A DNA stretch of 64,000 nt from Vulcanimicrobiota bacterium. Its GTDB lineage: Bacteria; Vulcanimicrobiota; Vulcanimicrobiia; Vulcanimicrobiales; Vulcanimicrobiaceae. A program made the position numbers and the translations under genes. A model generated the notes under the pieces. The model did no database searches. It was not told the origin of the DNA and worked only from the letters and a program-made list of their open reading frames with translations. Below, in pieces: positions 22,803-33,112 of the stretch (its first letter is position 1; every line of letters begins with the position of its first letter). The DNA is taken from positions 62,001-126,000 of the forward strand of contig DAHUXH010000013.1 of NCBI GenBank assembly GCA_027307235.1. Reading direction: 5' to 3'.

Positions 22803-23147
22803 ATGATCATGCGCTCCGCGCTCGGGCTCTGTGCCCTCCTCGCGTGTGCTGCGGCGCCCGCCGCGTTGCCCGCGCAGACGCATGCCGCGTACACGACCAA
22901 CGTGCAATCGGAGCGGCCTCACGCCGCGGTGCGCGGAAAGGTCGTGTCGGTGGACTATTCCGTGGGCATGATCGTCGTCGATACGGGCAGCCGCCGTTTG
23001 ACCGTGTACGCGACGCCGAGCACGATGATCGTTCGCGCCGATCACCAATACGGCACGCTCTCGGACATTACGCGCGGCAGCCGCGTCGAGATGGATACGG
23101 TCGAGGTCAACGGACAGGTCTTCGCTCAGTCGATCAGCCTGCAATAG
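22803..23147 (+). CDS. small secreted protein, beta-barrel-like
   Basis: 114 residues. A signal peptide (to about residue 27, ALPAQTHA) is followed by ~75 residues of alternating strands (GKVVSVDYSVGMIVVDTGSRRLTVYA) that suggest an OB-like fold, as in DUF5666-type proteins. The frame opens earlier at a GTG overlapping the previous stop, and either start is possible. It lies 5 bp before the ABC ATPase gene. Confidence 0.6.
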   Translation: MIMRSALGLCALLACAAAPAALPAQTHAAYTTNVQSERPHAAVRGKVVSVDYSVGMIVVDTGSRRLTVYATPSTMIVRADHQYGTLSDITRGSRVEMDTVEVNGQVFAQSISLQ

Positions 23148-23152
23148 CCTTC

Positions 23153-24136
23153 GTGCCGACGCTCGAAGCGCACGACATCACGAAAACGTTTCGAGCGGGT
23201 CGTGCGCTTCGGCTCGTGCTCGACCGCGTCAGTCTCGACGTGGACGCCGGGCAAACCCTGGCCGTCGTCGGCCCGTCGGGAGCCGGCAAGACGACATTGT
23301 TGCGTGTGCTCTGCGGTCTCGAAGCTGCCGATGCCGGTCGCATCGCGATCAACGGCGACGAGGTGACGCACCGGATGCCGCAGCGCCGCGCGATCGCGCT
23401 CGTGACACAGAACGACGCGTTGCTGCCGCATCTCTCCATCGACGACAATCTCCGGCTGGTCGCTCGCAACGGCATGCACCGCATCGACGCGGTGTCGGCC
23501 ATGCTGCACGTCAACGCGATTCGCAAGCAGAAGACGCGCACCGTCTCGGGCGGCGAGCGCCAGCGCGCGTCGCTGGCGCGCGCGCTGCTCGCCGATCCGA
23601 GTGTGCTGCTGCTCGACGAACCGTTCGCGCATCTCGATCCGCCGTTGCGCGCCGTGGTGCGCCGGTCGCTCTTCGACGTGCGCTCGAGTTTCGGTGGACC
23701 GATGCTCCTGGTCACGCACGATCATCTCGATGCGATGGCGGTGGCGACGCGCCTGGCGGTGCTGATCGACGGGCGCATCGAACAGATCGGCGAGCCGCAC
23801 ATCGTCTTTGAACGACCGGCCAACGTGCGAGTCGCCGCCTTTCTCGGCGTTCCCGCGATGAATCTGCTTCCGGGTGAAACGTTTGCGATGCCGGGCTGCA
23901 TCGTCGGCATTCGGCCCGAGCGCATTGCGCTCGCGAGCGACGGTGCGATCCGCGTGCGGATCGAGCGCATAGAACGCGCCGGTTCCGACGCGCTCGTCAC
24001 CGGACGCGACGGCGGTGTCGCGATTACCGTGCGCGTCGATGCCGCCGCCATGCCGCGCGTCGGTGAGACGGTCGGATTGGCGTTTGATGCGTCTGCCTTG
24101 TTGCGATTCGATCGCGAGAGCGGCGAGGCGTTGTAA
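23153..24136 (+). CDS. ABC transporter ATP-binding protein (MalK/CysA-like)
   Basis: 327 residues from a GTG. Walker A GPSGAGKT (40-47), signature SGGERQR (132-138), Walker B VLLLDEP (151-157) and the H-loop His in VTHDH. A C-terminal TOBE-like region (~230-327) contains GIRPE, as in importers of sugars, sulfate or molybdate. No permease or binding protein lies nearby, so its partner must be elsewhere. Position at the head of the recycling genes suggests a role with sugar or muropeptide uptake, which is inference only. Confidence 0.88.
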   Translation: MPTLEAHDITKTFRAGRALRLVLDRVSLDVDAGQTLAVVGPSGAGKTTLLRVLCGLEAADAGRIAINGDEVTHRMPQRRAIALVTQNDALLPHLSIDDNLRLVARNGMHRIDAVSAMLHVNAIRKQKTRTVSGGERQRASLARALLADPSVLLLDEPFAHLDPPLRAVVRRSLFDVRSSFGGPMLLVTHDHLDAMAVATRLAVLIDGRIEQIGEPHIVFERPANVRVAAFLGVPAMNLLPGETFAMPGCIVGIRPERIALASDGAIRVRIERIERAGSDALVTGRDGGVAITVRVDAAAMPRVGETVGLAFDASALLRFDRESGEAL

Positions 24137-24137
24137 C

Positions 24138-25652
24138 GTGAACGACGTGATGCGCCTCGCGGCGCGAACGCTGATCGTCGGATGCGAGGGCTCGACCCTC
24201 GCCGCACACGAAGAATCGCTGTTGCGCGAGTACGAGTTCGCCGGACTGGTCGTCTTCGCTCGCAATTTAAACTCGCTGCGGGAAGGCCGCGGCTTTACCG
24301 ACGCGGTTCGCGGCGCCTACGCGCAGCGGCTCGACCCCATTCTGGCGATCGATCACGAAGGCGGGCGGGTTCTGCGTCTGCACGAGGGCATTGCGCCGAT
24401 TCCAGCGGCAATGGCGATCGGCGCCACCCGCGATCTCGAGCTTGCCGCGCACGCGGGTGAGCAGAGCGCGACCGACGTGCGACGGATCGGATGCAACGTG
24501 CTCTTCGCGCCGGTCTGCGACGTCGCTGCCGAGCCGCGCAACACGGTGATCGGAACGCGCGCGTTTTCCGGCGATCCCGATGTGGTGACGGCGCTCGCGT
24601 CGGCGTTCGGCGACGGCGCCGTGCGCGGCGGCGCACTGCCCGTTTTCAAACATTTCCCGGGGCACGGCGCGACGGTCGCCGATTCACATCTTGGGATCGC
24701 GCATGTCACGTCGAGCGCGCACCTGTGGCGAACGCGTGACCTCGCGCCGTTTGCGGCGGTCGCGCGTGACGCGCGGGCGATGATGACGGCGCACGTCATC
24801 GTCGACGCGGTCGATCCCGACGTTCCGGCGACGATCTCGCATCGCTTGTTGACCGATGTGTTGCGTGTCGAACTGGGGTTCGAAGGCGTGCTCTTCACCG
24901 ATTGTCTGACGATGGGCGCGATCGCCGCGAGCATCGGCAGCGTCGAAGCGGGATGGCGCGCGATCGCGGCCGGTGCCGACTGCATCATGGTCAGTCACGA
25001 TCTCACCCTCGCGGCGGCATGCGTCGACCGTCTCGTGGCCGCGGTCGAGTCGGGCGAGCTTTCCCGCGAACGTCTGCGTGAAGCCTCGGAACGCGTGGAT
25101 GCGCTGCGCGCGCGGCTGACGCCGCCGTTGCCTCTCGATACGGCCGGCCCCTATCCCGGCGTCGCCGGCGAGATCGCGGCCGCTGCGGTGACGTTGGTCC
25201 GCGGCGCGCCGTCGGCGAACGCCAATCGCTGCGTGGCGGTCTCGTTCCGTGGTGCGCTCGGGGACGGCATACGCGATCTGCGCGACACGGCGGCTCTCGA
25301 CGCGAGTTGGCGCAATGTGCGCGAACTTGCCTTGCCGCTCGATCCGGCGCTCGACGCGGTGGACGCGGCGTGCGCCTCGATCGCGTCGCAGGCGCGAAGG
25401 CCGATCGTGCTGCTGCGGCGCGCGCACGTTCACGATCTGCAGGCCGATGCGGCGCGGCGCATCGTCGAGCGCTTCCCCGATGCGATGATCGTTTCCACGG
25501 CGGAGCCGTACGAAGTGGCCTGCGTACCGCAAGCGCGCACCGTCCTGTGCACCTACGACGACGGCCCGGCGGCGTTGCACGCGCTGGCCGACGTGCTCTT
25601 CGAAGGACGCCCCGTGCGTGGGGCGCTTCCGGTCACGCTCGCACATGTTTGA
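24138..25652 (+). CDS. nagZ: GH3 beta-N-acetylhexosaminidase (NagZ-like)
   Basis: 504 residues. KHFPGHG (171-177) and DSH (182-184) form the NagZ catalytic loop with its His-Asp dyad. Asp255 in FTDCLTMG is the nucleophile. NagZ removes GlcNAc from muropeptides. The protein is ~160 residues longer than E. coli NagZ, and the extra part looks like a GH3 C-terminal domain. There is no signal peptide, which fits cytosolic recycling. The GTG start follows the ABC gene stop by 1 base, and the end overlaps the next gene by 8 bp. Confidence 0.9.
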   Translation: MNDVMRLAARTLIVGCEGSTLAAHEESLLREYEFAGLVVFARNLNSLREGRGFTDAVRGAYAQRLDPILAIDHEGGRVLRLHEGIAPIPAAMAIGATRDLELAAHAGEQSATDVRRIGCNVLFAPVCDVAAEPRNTVIGTRAFSGDPDVVTALASAFGDGAVRGGALPVFKHFPGHGATVADSHLGIAHVTSSAHLWRTRDLAPFAAVARDARAMMTAHVIVDAVDPDVPATISHRLLTDVLRVELGFEGVLFTDCLTMGAIAASIGSVEAGWRAIAAGADCIMVSHDLTLAAACVDRLVAAVESGELSRERLREASERVDALRARLTPPLPLDTAGPYPGVAGEIAAAAVTLVRGAPSANANRCVAVSFRGALGDGIRDLRDTAALDASWRNVRELALPLDPALDAVDAACASIASQARRPIVLLRRAHVHDLQADAARRIVERFPDAMIVSTAEPYEVACVPQARTVLCTYDDGPAALHALADVLFEGRPVRGALPVTLAHV

Positions 25653-26673
25653 TTTCGAGCGCGCCGATCGCGTCTTGATCGACGCCGCCGGACGGCGCTT
25701 CACCGCGTGCGTCGCACGCGTCGAACATCACGGCCGTGTGGTGTTCGAGCGCGCATACGGCGTGACGCGCGACGACGAACTCGGGCAGCGGGTCTTTGCG
25801 GACACGCGCTTCGATCTGGCGTCGTTGACGAAACTGTTCGTCGCGACGCTGGCGCTGCGAGCGGTTGACGATGGCGTGCTCGCACTCGACACGCCGCTGA
25901 CCGAGTTGATCGAGGAATGGCGCGAGCGGCCGCACGCGGCGATCACGCTGCGCAGGCTGCTGGCGCACACCTCGGGCATGAACTCGGGTGCGGATTATCG
26001 CGAACTGTTCGGTGAGTGCGTGGAACGCTTCGCGCTCGTTCGCGATCTGGTCGCCACGCCGGGTGAGCGCGTAATCTACAGCGATCTCGGCTTCATCGCG
26101 CTCGGCGTTTTGTTGCAGCGCGCGACGGGACGTTCGCTCGCGGCGCTGGTCGCGGCAGCTTTTCCGGGCGGCTGCCTGACCTATCGCCCGGCCATCGCCG
26201 AGCAGATTCCGGCGACCGAAGCCGATGCGTGGCGTGGACGCGTGCAAGGGTTCGTTCACGACGAGAAAGCGTATCTCATCGGCGGCGTCGCCGGACACGC
26301 TGGGCTCTTCGGAACAGCCGCCGACGTTGCTGCTCTGGGCGAGGCGTTTCTTGCTCCGTTGTGCGGCCGCGGGCGCACGTTGCTTTCGAACGAACTGGTG
26401 CGCGAAGCGGTCCGCGAGCAGGCATACGATCCGGTGCTGCGACGCGGCTTGGGATGGGCGCTCAAAACCAGCGACGAGAATTCGTGCGGCGCGCGCTTCT
26501 CGCCGGATTCGTTCGGGCATACCGGATTTGTCGGGACGTGCGTCTGGGCGGATGCGCACCGCGATCTGCAAGCCGTGCTGTTGACCAACAGCGTCTACTT
26601 CGGGCGCAATGACACGCGCGATCTGCGCGCCGCGTTCTACGAAGCGCTCGCACAGGAGATCGACGGCGCATGA
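25645..26673 (+). CDS. serine hydrolase, class C beta-lactamase family
   Basis: 342 residues. SLTK gives the SxxK nucleophile (Ser60, Lys63), YSD at 145-147 replaces YxN, and HTG in FGHTGFVGT fills the KTG position. The layout is that of class C beta-lactamases, DD-peptidases and esterases (Pfam Beta-lactamase). No signal peptide is seen, so it is likely cytosolic. Its place between nagZ and anmK suggests it acts on muropeptides or their peptides, rather than on antibiotics. Confidence 0.87.
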   Translation: MFDFERADRVLIDAAGRRFTACVARVEHHGRVVFERAYGVTRDDELGQRVFADTRFDLASLTKLFVATLALRAVDDGVLALDTPLTELIEEWRERPHAAITLRRLLAHTSGMNSGADYRELFGECVERFALVRDLVATPGERVIYSDLGFIALGVLLQRATGRSLAALVAAAFPGGCLTYRPAIAEQIPATEADAWRGRVQGFVHDEKAYLIGGVAGHAGLFGTAADVAALGEAFLAPLCGRGRTLLSNELVREAVREQAYDPVLRRGLGWALKTSDENSCGARFSPDSFGHTGFVGTCVWADAHRDLQAVLLTNSVYFGRNDTRDLRAAFYEALAQEIDGA

Positions 26674-27827
26674 TCGCGATCGGACTGATGAGCGGCACGT
26701 CGTTGGACGGCATCGACGCGGCGCTCGTCGAGATATGCCCGACGCCCGAAGGGTCGTACATGCTCGATCTGCGACGATTCAAAACGGTCGCCTTCGAGGC
26801 CGATCTCGAGCGCGATCTGCGCGCCGCGCTTGCGCCGCATGCGGGGAGCGTGCATGCGGTAGCGTCGCTGCATCGGCGGCTAGGCGCCGCGTTCGCGCAA
26901 GCCGCCGCGAACGTCGCCGGCGACGCGCACGTCGATTATGTCGCATCGCACGGTTTGACGATCTATCACGACGGCGCATCGTCGATCACGCTGCAGATCG
27001 GCGATGCGTTCGCGATCCGCGACGCGGTGCGCGCGACGGTCTGTTACGATTTTCGTTCGGCCGACTGCGCGGCCGGCGGCGAAGGCGCGCCGCTCGTGCC
27101 GTGCGTCGATCGCCTCCTCTTCGCACATGACGACGACGAGCGCGTCGCAGTCAATCTCGGCGGCATCGCCAATCTCACCGCGATGCCGCGCGGTTCGTGG
27201 AGCGACCCGTCGCGCATCGCCGCCTTCGATTCGGGCCCCGCCAACATGGCGATTGACGAACTGATTCGACGCCGCACCGGCGGCCTGCGGCGCTGCGATC
27301 AGAACGGCGAGTTCGCGCGCAGCGGACGTTGTGACGAAGCCGTGCTGGGGGCGCTGCGTGCCGATCCGTACTTCTCGCAGGCACCGCCGAAATCGACCGG
27401 GCGTGAACGCTTCGGCGGCGCGCTGCTCGATCGTTTAGCGACACGTTTGGATGCGCTATCGATCGAGGACGCGGCCGCGACGCTCACCGAACTCACGGCG
27501 TCGACGGTCGCCGATGCGATCGTATCGGTCGGTCTGGACCGGGGGCGCATCTTTCTCTCGGGAGGCGGCGTTCATAACGCGCACCTGCTCGCCCGCCTGA
27601 AAGCACGACTTCCCAATGCGCTCATCGAAACGACCGCTGCGATGGGAGTCGATCCGGATGCCAAAGAGGCGCTGGCCTTTGCCGTTCTCGGTTACGAGAC
27701 GCTGCGGGGCCGAGCCGTGAGTCTTGCGCAGGTGACCGGCGCGCGAACGGCCGTCGTGCTCGGCGCGATCGCGCCGTACCAGCTCGCGCCGCTGCTCGCG
27801 CGCATGGAGAACGAATGTCGTTTGTAA
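26670..27827 (+). CDS. anmK: anhydro-N-acetylmuramic acid kinase
   Basis: 385 residues opening MIAIGLMSGTSLDGIDAAL, the phosphate-binding motif of AnmK. A sugar-binding block reads AFDSGPANMAID near 190 and the adenosine-side motif FLSGGGVHN near 295. AnmK cleaves the 1,6-anhydro ring of anhydroMurNAc with phosphorylation, giving MurNAc-6-phosphate for MurQ. It overlaps the serine hydrolase gene by 4 bp and the next gene by 13 bp. Confidence 0.95.
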   Translation: MIAIGLMSGTSLDGIDAALVEICPTPEGSYMLDLRRFKTVAFEADLERDLRAALAPHAGSVHAVASLHRRLGAAFAQAAANVAGDAHVDYVASHGLTIYHDGASSITLQIGDAFAIRDAVRATVCYDFRSADCAAGGEGAPLVPCVDRLLFAHDDDERVAVNLGGIANLTAMPRGSWSDPSRIAAFDSGPANMAIDELIRRRTGGLRRCDQNGEFARSGRCDEAVLGALRADPYFSQAPPKSTGRERFGGALLDRLATRLDALSIEDAAATLTELTASTVADAIVSVGLDRGRIFLSGGGVHNAHLLARLKARLPNALIETTAAMGVDPDAKEALAFAVLGYETLRGRAVSLAQVTGARTAVVLGAIAPYQLAPLLARMENECRL

Positions 27828-28723
27828 TCGTCGGCGTCGATGCGGGCGGAACCCGGACGACGGCCGCTGCGCTCGGCGAGCGCGGCGAGCCGACGGTCGT
27901 GCGCGGTGAGGGCGCCAATCTCGTCACGCTTGGAAGCGAGCGTGCAGCACAGCGGATCGCGGCGCTGGCCCGCGCCGCGCTCGGCGGCGCACGCGCCGAC
28001 GCGCTCGTGGTCGGTGCGGCCGGCGCGTGGAATCCGGACATCGCGGCTGAGTTGCGCCAGGAGTTGACGCGGGCCACCGGCATCGTCAACGTCGAGGTCA
28101 CGCATGACGCGCGTATCGCGCTGCGCGCCGCCGTTCCCGACGGCGACGGGATCGTGGTGATCGCCGGAACCGGATCGATTGCCTATGGCGAAATCGGTGC
28201 GACGCATCTGCGAGCCGGCGGTTTTGGTCATCTGCTCGGCGACGAGGGATCGGGATATGCGATCGGTGCCGCCGCGTTGCGCCTCACGCTGCGTGCGCTC
28301 GACGAACGCTCGCCGCGCGATGCGCTGGTGGAAGAGGTGCTGCGAGGCTTCGAGGCGGCCGACGCCTGCGGGCTGCTCGCGCGCGTTCACGCTGAGAGCG
28401 ACGTGGTCGCGGCCATCGCATCGCTCGCGCCGAGCGTCATCGCGCTCGCCGGCAGCGGTGAGCGCTCCGCGCAGAAGATCGTGCAGCAGGCGGCGCTCGA
28501 TTTGGCTGACCTCGTCAAAACCGTCGTGAAGCGAGCCGCCCTGCGCGATGGCGCAACGCCGATCGCGTGTTCCGGCGGGCTGCTGCGGGAGAATTCGCTG
28601 CTCTCGTATCTGCTGGAGACGCGCTTGAGCAACGAATGTCCGGCGATGCCGATCGTCAAGGGTGGCCCGCCGCCGTATCACGGTGCGCTCGCGCTGGCAC
28701 GCCGCATGCTCGCAACCGCGTGA
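27815..28723 (+). CDS. BadF/BadG-family N-acetyl amino-sugar kinase (MurK/NagK-like)
   Basis: 302 residues. DAGGTRTT (residues 9-16) is the phosphate-1 motif, VIAGTGSIAY the phosphate-2 motif and LLGDEGSGYAIG the sugar-binding block of BadF-type GlcNAc kinases. Clostridial MurK, of the same family, phosphorylates both MurNAc and GlcNAc. Between anmK and murQ it probably handles GlcNAc released by NagZ and/or MurNAc. GTGA overlap links it to murQ. Confidence 0.85.
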   Translation: MSFVIVGVDAGGTRTTAAALGERGEPTVVRGEGANLVTLGSERAAQRIAALARAALGGARADALVVGAAGAWNPDIAAELRQELTRATGIVNVEVTHDARIALRAAVPDGDGIVVIAGTGSIAYGEIGATHLRAGGFGHLLGDEGSGYAIGAAALRLTLRALDERSPRDALVEEVLRGFEAADACGLLARVHAESDVVAAIASLAPSVIALAGSGERSAQKIVQQAALDLADLVKTVVKRAALRDGATPIACSGGLLRENSLLSYLLETRLSNECPAMPIVKGGPPPYHGALALARRMLATA

Positions 28724-29601
28724 GCGAGCTGACTCCGACCGAAGCGCGCAACGCGCGCACGCGTGGACTCGACACCCTCTCCACCCGCGAGTTGGTGGCC
28801 GTGCTGATCGACGAGCAGGTGCGCGCCGCCGCCGCAGTGCGCGCGGCCGCCGGCGCGATCGAGCGTGTCGTCGGCGAGATTGTCGAGAGGTTGAAGCGCT
28901 CCGGCCGTGTGCATTACGTGGGAGCGGGCACGAGCGGACGTTTGGGCGTGCTCGACGCGTCTGAGATTCCGCCCACGTTCGGAGCCGAGCCGGATCTGAT
29001 CTGCGCGCACATCGCCGGCGGCGACGACGCGGTGCGCCGCGCCGTCGAAGGCGCCGAAGACGATCGCGCGGCGGGTGCCGCGGCGATGCGCGGACACGTC
29101 GCGCCCGACGACGTGGTCATCGGAGTTTCCGCGAGCGGTGGTGCGCCGTTCGTCCTCGCGGCGCTCGACGAGGCGCGGGCGATCGGCGCGTTCACCGCGG
29201 CGCTGGTGAGCGTGCAAGGCTCGCCGCTCGTGCAGGCTGCCGACGCGGCGATCGTCGTCGAGACCGGTGCGGAAGCGATCGCCGGTTCGACACGTTTGGG
29301 AGCGGGCACGGCGCACAAGATCGCGTTGAACGTGATTTCCACCGCCGCGATGGTGCGATTGGGAAAAGTGTATGACCATCTCATGGTCGATCTCGTCGCC
29401 AGCAACGACAAGTTGCGCCGGCGCGCGCAACGCCTGATCGCGGAGATCGCCGGTGTGGACGACGAGCGCGCGCAAACGCTGCTCGCGCGCGCGGACGGCC
29501 GCGTGAAGGTCGCGATCGTGATGGCCAAACGCGGACTCGATGCGGATGCGGCACGCGCGCTGCTGGAACGGCACGCCGGGGTCTTGCGCGCGTGCATCTA
29601 G
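28720..29601 (+). CDS. murQ: N-acetylmuramic acid 6-phosphate etherase
   Basis: 293 residues from a GTG shared with the previous stop. GAGTSGRLGVLDASE (68-82) is the SIS substrate loop with the catalytic Glu82, and SASGGAPFV and AGSTRLGAGTAHK follow in order. MurQ cleaves the lactyl ether of MurNAc-6-phosphate to give GlcNAc-6-phosphate. Length and motifs match the family throughout. It overlaps the DUF4127 gene by 10 bp. Confidence 0.96.
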   Translation: MSELTPTEARNARTRGLDTLSTRELVAVLIDEQVRAAAAVRAAAGAIERVVGEIVERLKRSGRVHYVGAGTSGRLGVLDASEIPPTFGAEPDLICAHIAGGDDAVRRAVEGAEDDRAAGAAAMRGHVAPDDVVIGVSASGGAPFVLAALDEARAIGAFTAALVSVQGSPLVQAADAAIVVETGAEAIAGSTRLGAGTAHKIALNVISTAAMVRLGKVYDHLMVDLVASNDKLRRRAQRLIAEIAGVDDERAQTLLARADGRVKVAIVMAKRGLDADAARALLERHAGVLRACI

Positions 29602-31133
29602 GCGCGCTCGCAGTGCTGTTCTCGGCGCTGGTCGCGCCGATCGTGTACGTGCCGCTCGACGACCGGCCGGTGACGCGAGAGCTGCCGCAGATGCTCGGCC
29701 GCATCGCGGGACGTCCGGTCGTCGAACCGCCGCGTGCGCTGCTCGGCAACTACTTGAGTCCTGGACAGCCTGACGCGATCATCGCGTGGCTCAACGCGCA
29801 CGCGCCGTCCGGTGCGCGCGACGCGGTCATCTCCACAGACATGCTCACCTACGGTGGGCTGGTCGCCTCGCGCGTCCCGAACGTTGCGTATGACGGCGCG
29901 TTCTTTCGCATGCGCGCCCTCGCGCAGTTTCACGCGGCGCACCCCGATGCGCACATCAGCGCGTTCGCAACCGTCATGCGTCTGGCGCCGACCGGTGTCC
30001 CCGCTATCGGTCCGGCGGCATCGTTCTTCGCGGCCTTTCCGGTGTGGCAGTATCTCCAGCAGTACGCGAATCTGCACGATCCGCCGTTGCCCCAAGAAGA
30101 AGGGACGGCGGCGCACCTGCGTGCGTTGATCGGCGAGCCGGTTCTGCAAGCGTACCTCGACGCACGCGCGCGCAACGTGGCAGTCGATCGCATCCTGGTT
30201 CGCGACGTCGCCGCGAACATTGTCGAGCGCGCTGTGATCGGACAAGATGACGCCGGAGCCATCGGACTGCATGTGAAGGAAGTGCAGACACTGCAAGACG
30301 ACGTCGTTCAGTCGGGTGCCGGCGAGCGCATCACGGTTGAGCCGGGAGCCGACGAACTGGGCATGGCGTTAGTGGCGCGCGCGCTCGCTCGCGGCGTCGG
30401 CTGGCAGCCGCACGTCGCGGTGCGCTACTCGATGCCTGACGGCGCGGACCAGCGCGACCCGCTGGAGTTCGCTCCCTTCGCCACCACGATCAGCGATCTG
30501 ATCGCGCTCTGCGGCGGCGTCGTCGACGACGCGGCGCCCGATGTCGTCCTGTACGTGCGCGTTCCGTCCACCGACGCAGAACACGATGACGCGCTGCTGG
30601 TGGCGATGCAAGCCGACGTCAACGCGCATCATGCGGTGGCCTTCGCCGATCTGACCTTTCTCGAAAAGACGTTTGATGCGCAGGCGCGATTCGCGCAGAT
30701 GCTGATCGATCGCGGTGTGGCCGGGCGTCTGGATGCGTACGCCTCGTGGAATACCGATGCGAACACGGTCGGCACCGCGCTTGCCGAAACGATTGCCGCC
30801 GGCGTCGGTCGCCGCGCGCGAACCTACGATGCGCTGGCGCATGCGGAGTTCACGTTCGACCGGATTCTCGACGACGACGTGTTTCACACTCGCGTGCGGC
30901 CCGACCTGAATGCGACGCTCACCGCAAACGGGGTGGACGACCACACCTATCTGTTGCCGGAGGTTGCCGAGCCGATTGCGCTGCGCAACTCCGCGCAGCT
31001 TCACTACGCCGCCTTCACGCTCGCGCCGGTGATCTTTCCCGGCTACCATTTGGCAGCATTCTCGGCGACGCTGCCCTGGAATCGGACGTTTGAAACCGGG
31101 ATCGACGCGCGCCTCGCACCCGACGTGCGGTAG
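29592..31133 (+). CDS. DUF4127 family protein
   Basis: 513 residues. VPLDDRPVTRE near the N-terminus and AYASWNTDANTVGTAL near 385 are hallmark DUF4127 blocks. The first ~15 residues are hydrophobic and may be a signal peptide or membrane anchor; a GTG start is used. The family has no assigned activity that I can cite. Its tight overlap with murQ at the end of the operon ties it to amino-sugar or muropeptide metabolism. A short GCGGCGCCGC hairpin follows its stop. Confidence 0.88.
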   Translation: MHLGALAVLFSALVAPIVYVPLDDRPVTRELPQMLGRIAGRPVVEPPRALLGNYLSPGQPDAIIAWLNAHAPSGARDAVISTDMLTYGGLVASRVPNVAYDGAFFRMRALAQFHAAHPDAHISAFATVMRLAPTGVPAIGPAASFFAAFPVWQYLQQYANLHDPPLPQEEGTAAHLRALIGEPVLQAYLDARARNVAVDRILVRDVAANIVERAVIGQDDAGAIGLHVKEVQTLQDDVVQSGAGERITVEPGADELGMALVARALARGVGWQPHVAVRYSMPDGADQRDPLEFAPFATTISDLIALCGGVVDDAAPDVVLYVRVPSTDAEHDDALLVAMQADVNAHHAVAFADLTFLEKTFDAQARFAQMLIDRGVAGRLDAYASWNTDANTVGTALAETIAAGVGRRARTYDALAHAEFTFDRILDDDVFHTRVRPDLNATLTANGVDDHTYLLPEVAEPIALRNSAQLHYAAFTLAPVIFPGYHLAAFSATLPWNRTFETGIDARLAPDVR

Positions 31134-31142
31134 CGGCGCCGC

Positions 31143-31534
31143 TCAGCGCGGCTGACAGAGCTCGATCAGGACGCCGCCCGTGCTCTTGGGGTGGATGAAG
31201 GCGATGCGGTTGCCATGCGCGCCGTCGCGCGGATGCTGATCGATCATGCGCACGCCGTTCGCGGTGAGCTGCGCGATCTTCGCTTCTATGTCGTCAACGC
31301 GGTAAGCGGTGTGGTGCAACTTCGTCGGCGCGTCGCCGCGAAATTTCGCGATCGGCGACTCTTCGTCGAGCGGGCGCAACAACTCGATGATGGAATCACC
31401 GGCACGTAGTCCCACCACCTCGACACCCTGGTCGGCGATCGTCTCGCGATAGACCTGATCGAAGCCGAGCGTGTTCGTATAGAGAGCGATCGTCGCTTCC
31501 AGGTCTTTGACGACGATGGCGACGTGGTCGATGG

Positions 31535-31538
<4 letters not shown>
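31143..31538 (-). CDS. mce: methylmalonyl-CoA epimerase
   Basis: 131 residues, a single VOC (glyoxalase-like) fold opening [14 protein letters not shown]. Candidate metal ligands are His in IDHVAI, His in LHHTAYRV and Glu in GVLIELCQP. It interconverts the methylmalonyl-CoA epimers in propionate metabolism. The ATG at 31538 overlaps the mutase stop by 4 bp. It is the last gene of the minus-strand operon. Confidence 0.94.

Positions 31539-33112
<1,574 letters not shown>

Follow-up and report, generated by a model that had tools for sequence, protein, structure and literature searches.

A muropeptide salvage operon in Vulcanimicrobiota ending in a DUF4127 gene, a candidate for a secreted accessory of amino-sugar recycling

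The stretch of DNA analysed here (the window, 64,000 nucleotides, positions 62001-126000 of contig DAHUXH010000013.1) belongs to a Vulcanimicrobiota genome of 2.41 Mb (96.6% complete), whose sequence is most similar to those of Candidatus Eremiobacterota. It contains a salvage operon for muropeptides and N-acetylmuramic acid (MurNAc) that is conserved in Eremiobacterota and ends in a gene of the DUF4127 family (PF13552), the sole unexplained enzyme of the operon. The seven operon genes, all on the + strand between 23153 and 31133, gave full-length profile matches and are preceded just 5' by a small exported protein:

22803-23147, + strand: small predicted exported protein of 114 amino acids (open reading frame with a hydrophobic N-terminus)
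23153-24136, + strand: UgpC/MalK-type ATP-binding cassette (ABC) ATPase with a TOBE domain (PF00005, 5.6e-34; TOBE_2, PF08402, 3e-10)
24138-25652, + strand: NagZ, a two-domain GH3 beta-N-acetylglucosaminidase (PF00933, 1.2e-70; NCBIfam PRK05337)
25645-26673, + strand: PF00144 serine hydrolase of the class C beta-lactamase/S12 type, AmiE-like by context (PF00144, 2.8e-47)
26670-27827, + strand: AnmK (PF03702, 6.9e-91; PDB 3cqy, 1.1e-62)
27815-28723, + strand: BadF/BadG-family sugar kinase, MurK/NagK-like (PF01869, 1.3e-31; PDB 8zo3)
28720-29601, + strand: MurQ, MurNAc-6-phosphate etherase (TIGR00274; PDB 4lzj, 1.4e-66)
29592-31133, + strand: DUF4127 protein of 513 amino acids (PF13552, 1.6e-101)

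The original prediction, made from the sequence alone, had described an overlapping head-to-tail run from nagZ to DUF4127. All the genes it named are present, and the five junctions from nagZ onwards overlap by 8, 4, 13, 4 and 10 bases, the ABC ATPase and nagZ being separated by a single base; translational coupling of the overlapping genes is likely. The genes of the locus it had delimited (22803-31133) are as described, but its start belongs to the small exported protein, which it did not mention and which is kept in about half of the relatives (tblastn, related loci). Since the identical gene order was found again in dozens of Eremiobacterota contigs, the arrangement is not due to chance. 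No RNA element was detected in the window with Rfam at gathering thresholds.

NagZ, AnmK and MurQ had been proposed as a muropeptide/MurNAc salvage set, an assignment that stands, as the three proteins match the corresponding families with full-length profiles. NagZ scored 219.7 bits with the NCBIfam model PRK05337 (cut-off 207), retains intact KHFPGHG...DSH and TDCLTM motifs, lacks a signal peptide and can be aligned from end to end with a two-domain GH3 N-acetylglucosaminidase of known structure (PDB 6k5j, 1e-61). The predicted identity of AnmK is supported by its full-length PF03702 match and its homology to a solved AnmK, while the NCBIfam equivalogs scored slightly under their cut-offs (best 368.6 versus 387). 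MurQ reached 304.2 bits with TIGR00274 (cut-off 302), in agreement with a predicted MurNAc-6-phosphate etherase.

The serine hydrolase, which had been left without an assigned step, and the BadF-type kinase can both be given a probable place. S12-type hydrolases range widely in their substrates. The hydrolase of the operon has intact SxxK (SLTK), YSD and HTG motifs and no signal peptide, and its best NCBIfam model, PBP4B, was matched partially and under the cut-off. AmiE of Bacillus subtilis is presumably also a PF00144 protein and, with its SxxK/YxN-D/HxG motifs and its position beside nagZ, the hydrolase of the window has the features of a putative enzyme of this type. In B. subtilis, amiE, which encodes a MurNAc-L-Ala amidase, adjoins nagZ and murQ (PMC5061867), and a GH3 NagZ fused to a beta-lactamase domain (RmNag3) occurs in the AmpG-less genome of Rhodothermus (PMC6987092). 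The best solved relative of the BadF-type kinase is a MurNAc/N-acetylglucosamine (GlcNAc) kinase (PDB 8zo3, 4.3e-27, residues 5-296), a precedent for a putative MurK role; the NCBIfam GlcNAc kinase model scores 92 against a cut-off of 370.

The linkage between DUF4127 and murQ was examined by searching PF13552, MurQ and AnmK in 149 genomes of the phylum, including 117 of the window's class. Within the class, murQ lies upstream of DUF4127, on the same strand and at most 5 kb away, in 90 of the 95 genomes that have both genes. In the window's order the same arrangement was found for 93 of 98 DUF4127 copies; in this lineage DUF4127 is a constant member of the recycling operon. Genomes of the order that are at least 90% complete and lack DUF4127 also lack murQ, with one exception (G102), whose contig ends 109 bases after murQ; because linked genes can share one deletion or one missing contig, this joint absence is supportive evidence and not independent. 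In three genomes of another order of the class, DUF4127 has an ABC importer next to it and is 7-14 kb away from murQ. The importer genes between murQ and DUF4127 are real; their interpretation as a single operon with both was rejected, as a gene on the opposite strand interrupts the series.

The DUF4127 protein scored 340.8 bits with PF13552 (cut-off 27) over domain positions 1-488 of 489 and is a full-length member of this family, which spans at least six phyla; no paper naming DUF4127 or PF13552 was found in the literature searched. About 29 positions, most of them occupied by charged, amide or aromatic residues, reach a conservation of 93% or more in a set of 124 sequences that covers several phyla and includes exported as well as cytosolic members. 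These near-invariants include D12, R14, D72, R83, R119, R181, D209, D243, E281, D342, W375 and N376 as well as T377, N380, R413, D417, R425, W485 and R487 (numbering starts at window base 29625, the first residue of the domain alignment). An AlphaFold2 model built from a 15-row alignment (predicted local distance difference test, pLDDT, 90; predicted template modelling score, pTM, 0.92) alternates strands and helices, and many of the near-invariant residues sit just after its strands. Neither Foldseek nor profile searches yielded a solved relative (no PDB match with E <= 0.001; best TMq 0.25, with a root-mean-square deviation of at least 10 A), and for this reason the chemistry of DUF4127 cannot be named and no TIM-barrel, Rossmann or glycosidase assignment is claimed. 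The sole homologue in BFVD, A0A346TNQ6, is an unnamed viral-database entry of 693 amino acids (TMq 0.84, 22% identity over the length of the DUF4127 model), and virus-associated DUF4127 proteins may exist.

The N-terminus of the window copy (LGALAVLFSALVA) is hydrophobic. The protein begins with VHLGALAVLFSALVAPIVYVPL, a stretch that is short and uncharged, and export of this copy is for this reason likely rather than certain. Applying a simple hydrophobicity test, in which an export-type N-terminus is a hydrophobic stretch before the first strand, such a stretch was found in 44 of 47 copies of the murQ lineage. The wider family was divided by a DUF4127 tree (95 rows, quick method, midpoint root) into two halves with a support of 97. 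One of these comprises the Eremiobacterial copies (22 rows, support 100) together with those of Bacteroidota, Verrucomicrobiota, Acidobacteriota and Fimbriimonad-type Armatimonadota, and here all 34 tested proteins from the other phyla have a hydrophobic N-terminus; the other includes deep families of the window's phylum, other Armatimonadota, Bacillota and Deinococcus, with such an N-terminus in 2 of 38 proteins. The family thus appears to consist of a branch with signal-like N-termini, to which the window copy belongs, and a cytosolic branch. Judged from these N-termini, the operon probably combines salvage enzymes of the cytosol with a single secreted protein, and an action of DUF4127 beside the cytosolic enzymes becomes improbable.

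In Armatimonadota and the deep families of the window's phylum, cytosolic DUF4127 is often tightly paired with a gene lying 5' of it, whose product, here called c1, has about 240 residues and no Pfam or usable NCBIfam match. This pair was found in 4 of 20 sampled Armatimonadota regions plus the locus L104, and in 20 deep-family genomes (c1 loci 5' of DUF4127: L104, L119, L126, L129, L138, L139, L142 and L144; alignment A4); among the 149 genomes of the phylum c1 occurs in 29, none of them in the window's class. The c1 model is a confident TIM barrel (pLDDT 94) with TrpA homologues, ThiE and Pdx1 as nearest folds. Its assignment as a true NanE was abandoned given the weak profile link (probability 40%, E 3e-4), and only the description "phosphate-barrel-like" is kept. 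A scenario in which c1 was lost and DUF4127 recruited to murQ was also discarded, as the tree places the copies linked to c1 in one half and those of Eremiobacterota in the other.

Regarding uptake, the ABC ATPase recurs in the locus: in about 21 of 35 related loci its gene immediately precedes nagZ. It has no permease beside it. The original prediction saw in this MalK-like ATPase a hint of an unlinked importer; none was found, as the binding-protein permeases recognised in the genome are an OppBC pair, an osmoprotectant-type (Opu) system, PstAC by context and one unassigned match, and no MalFG-type partner was recognised among them. AmpG was not detected either (no match to TIGR00901 in this 96.6% complete genome; the E. 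coli control was positive). Far from the operon, the genome encodes a NamZ protein with an export-type N-terminus (PF07075, Pfam NamZ_N, the B. subtilis YbbC family; G000:C15:13281-13883, L169:1330-2574). NamZ, the family of ybbC, is an exo-muramidase. The export-type N-terminus of NamZ and the absence of AmpG make it plausible that cell-wall fragments are broken down outside the membrane before uptake.

Outside the class, a part of the DUF4127 family is found next to genes for other amino-sugar routes. Bacteroidota loci combine an N-acylglucosamine 2-epimerase (708 bits, cut-off 600), a NagP/FucP-like transporter, DUF4127, SusC and SusD with a PF12831 oxidoreductase and GH20 or ROK; the epimerase is present in 6 and the PF12831 cluster in 9 of 13 such loci. 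NanE, phosphotransferase system (PTS) and MurR/RpiR genes accompany DUF4127 on plasmids of Priestia and Carnobacterium (Bacillota were sampled through plasmids only), while on a Deinococcus plasmid it occurs with NagZ, a GH20-like protein, sugar permeases and a flavin adenine dinucleotide (FAD) oxidoreductase, and three Armatimonadota loci have NanE, ROK or an epimerase. For part of the family the amino-sugar link appears broader than murQ/anmK. The original prediction was to fall if DUF4127 genes elsewhere showed no association with amino-sugar genes, and this came about by half: the link to murQ and anmK is absent, and a subset of the loci has N-acylglucosamine 2-epimerase, NanE, ROK or GH20.

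Altogether, the seven head-to-tail genes can be read as a salvage operon for cell-wall amino sugars. Three steps are established from the families of the enzymes: the removal of GlcNAc by NagZ, the phosphorylation of anhydro-MurNAc by AnmK and the cleavage of MurNAc-6-phosphate into GlcNAc-6-phosphate and D-lactate by MurQ. The PF00144 hydrolase may remove the peptide in the role of AmiE, the BadF-type kinase may phosphorylate free MurNAc and/or GlcNAc in that of MurK, and the ABC ATPase would power an importer encoded elsewhere. As for DUF4127, we infer from context that it is a hydrolase or lyase, most likely a secreted one acting outside the membrane on fragments that contain N-acetylhexosamine, whose products would then be taken up and enter the MurNAc/GlcNAc route. 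In the window's lineage it would be a fixed accessory of this salvage, and some relatives in other phyla would serve other N-acetylhexosamine routes such as GlcNAc/N-acetylmannosamine epimerisation. That DUF4127 is a secreted enzyme preparing amino-sugar fragments for the salvage route is the reading we tentatively prefer, with a confidence that falls somewhat short of even.

Several observations weigh against this proposal. The window copy has a short signal whose N-region is uncharged, its chemistry is not hinted at by any fold relative, and an action outside the membrane is impossible for the cytosolic half of the family, so that the substrate class may be broader. In another order of the class DUF4127 is missing from most genomes with murQ/anmK, and in the rest of the phylum the two genes are adjacent in none of the 19 genomes with DUF4127 and murQ. 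Within about 9 kb of DUF4127, or up to the contig end where this was closer, MurQ, AnmK and the hydrolase were absent from all 31 DUF4127 contigs of Bacteroidota, Acidobacteriota, Armatimonadota and Verrucomicrobiota. Among 121 Armatimonadota genomes, AnmK is present in 22 of 51 with DUF4127 versus 41 of 70 without it (odds ratio 0.54, p 0.10), and in the Bacteroidota sample DUF4127 occurred in 1 of 148 genomes, the centre genome itself. With these results DUF4127 was rejected as a general murQ/anmK partner across bacteria, and the association with murQ/anmK that the original prediction proposed to look for was not borne out beyond the class. Amino-sugar neighbours were found in only about 12 of 77 outside loci, an approximate count that relies on gene calls by a simple longest-ORF (open reading frame) rule and has no background rate; the others have SMC, RuvAB, apgM or undescribed genes as neighbours.

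The last results fit a rival reading in which the function of DUF4127 is a general one (envelope, glycan or phosphosugar) rather than specific to amino sugars, and in which the gene was captured once beside murQ in the ancestor of the order and kept there for expression reasons. The murQ-linked copies form one clade within a family of diverse neighbours, and the loose arrangement in the other order of the class, where DUF4127 lies beside an ABC importer, also fits; on the other hand, this account has to accommodate that DUF4127 is paired with amino-sugar epimerases separately in Bacteroidota, Bacillota and Armatimonadota and that almost all genomes of the order have kept it immediately behind murQ, and we consider it possible but doubtful. 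The same near-universal adjacency, together with the overlap with murQ, would agree with a cytosolic step of MurNAc recycling (e.g., on MurNAc-6-phosphate, GlcNAc-6-phosphate or D-lactate), as would the short hydrophobic N-terminus of the window copy and the cytosolic relatives beside NanE, which acts on N-acetylmannosamine-6-phosphate. The placement of the window copy in the tree half with export-type N-termini, present in nearly all its close relatives, and the lack of a murQ link beyond the class make such a step improbable. A binding or structural protein would explain why neither a catalytic assignment nor a fold relative was obtained; the near-invariant, mostly polar or aromatic residues are the pattern expected of an active site, and a non-enzymatic role is very unlikely.

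Returning to the secreted enzyme, the proposal that DUF4127 is a good candidate for a new recycling function is upheld insofar as the gene is constant in the operon of the lineage, while its partnership with murQ/anmK does not extend elsewhere and its action is probably not cytosolic. A more far-reaching hypothesis, which at present we regard as rather unlikely, is that DUF4127 represents a new enzyme family of unsolved fold acting on N-acetylhexosamine-containing glycans. One branch would be secreted and salvage the cell wall or glycans, the other would be cytosolic and partnered by 2-epimerases or a phosphate-barrel-type protein, and in Eremiobacterota the family would add an extracytoplasmic step to muropeptide recycling.

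Some further neighbours deserve mention. In the window, convergent genes beside DUF4127 (31143-33112, - strand) resemble methylmalonyl-CoA epimerase and mutase; similar genes are neighbours of DUF4127 in another order of the class (L135, L136), suggesting that this edge of the locus is old. The PF12831 FAD-dependent oxidoreductase was observed near DUF4127 in Bacteroidota (L083-L109; e.g., L109:15536-17248), and the plasmids of Deinococcus and Priestia likewise have FAD-dependent oxidoreductases in its vicinity. In Acidobacteriota, and in a single contig of Bacteroidota, DUF4127 adjoins a protein of about 430 amino acids without a Pfam match, often together with a hydantoinase/oxoprolinase (L082, L094, L096, L099, L107 and L110).

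The murQ-linked branch gives PF13552 a testable metabolic setting, MurNAc/GlcNAc salvage, and the signal-like N-terminus, together with the division of the family between secreted and cytosolic members, shows where its function may be sought, making DUF4127 a good lead for a missing step of amino-sugar recycling. There is a precedent for such a gene in the murQ-murR-murP-amiE-nagZ-ybbC cluster of B. subtilis (PMC5061867), in which NagZ, MurQ and an amidase likely of the same type are clustered as in the operon described here, and whose last gene, ybbC, then of unknown role, belongs to the family now called NamZ; the window genome has an unlinked ybbC homologue. In contrast to that cluster, the operon has neither a MurP PTS nor MurR among its members, its NagZ and hydrolase lack signal peptides, it adds AnmK and the BadF-type kinase, and its extra gene is DUF4127 and not NamZ. 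With the anhydro-muropeptide recycling of Gram-negative bacteria (NagZ, AmpD, LdcA, AnmK, MurQ, AmpG) it shares cytosolic NagZ, AnmK and MurQ; the window genome differs by the absence of AmpG, the PF00144 hydrolase may replace AmpD, and the ABC ATPase and DUF4127 are added. Among MurK-type kinases, the BadF-type kinase can be aligned along its full length with 8zo3 and matches the Tannerella MurK enzymes weakly (4e-4; PMC10465942). RmNag3 of Rhodothermus (PMC6987092) is a fusion precedent, likewise in an AmpG-less genome, for the NagZ-PF00144 pair, which in the window consists of separate genes without signal peptides, unlike RmNag3. Seen beside these systems, the operon would be a variant of known recycling whose novelty lies in DUF4127.

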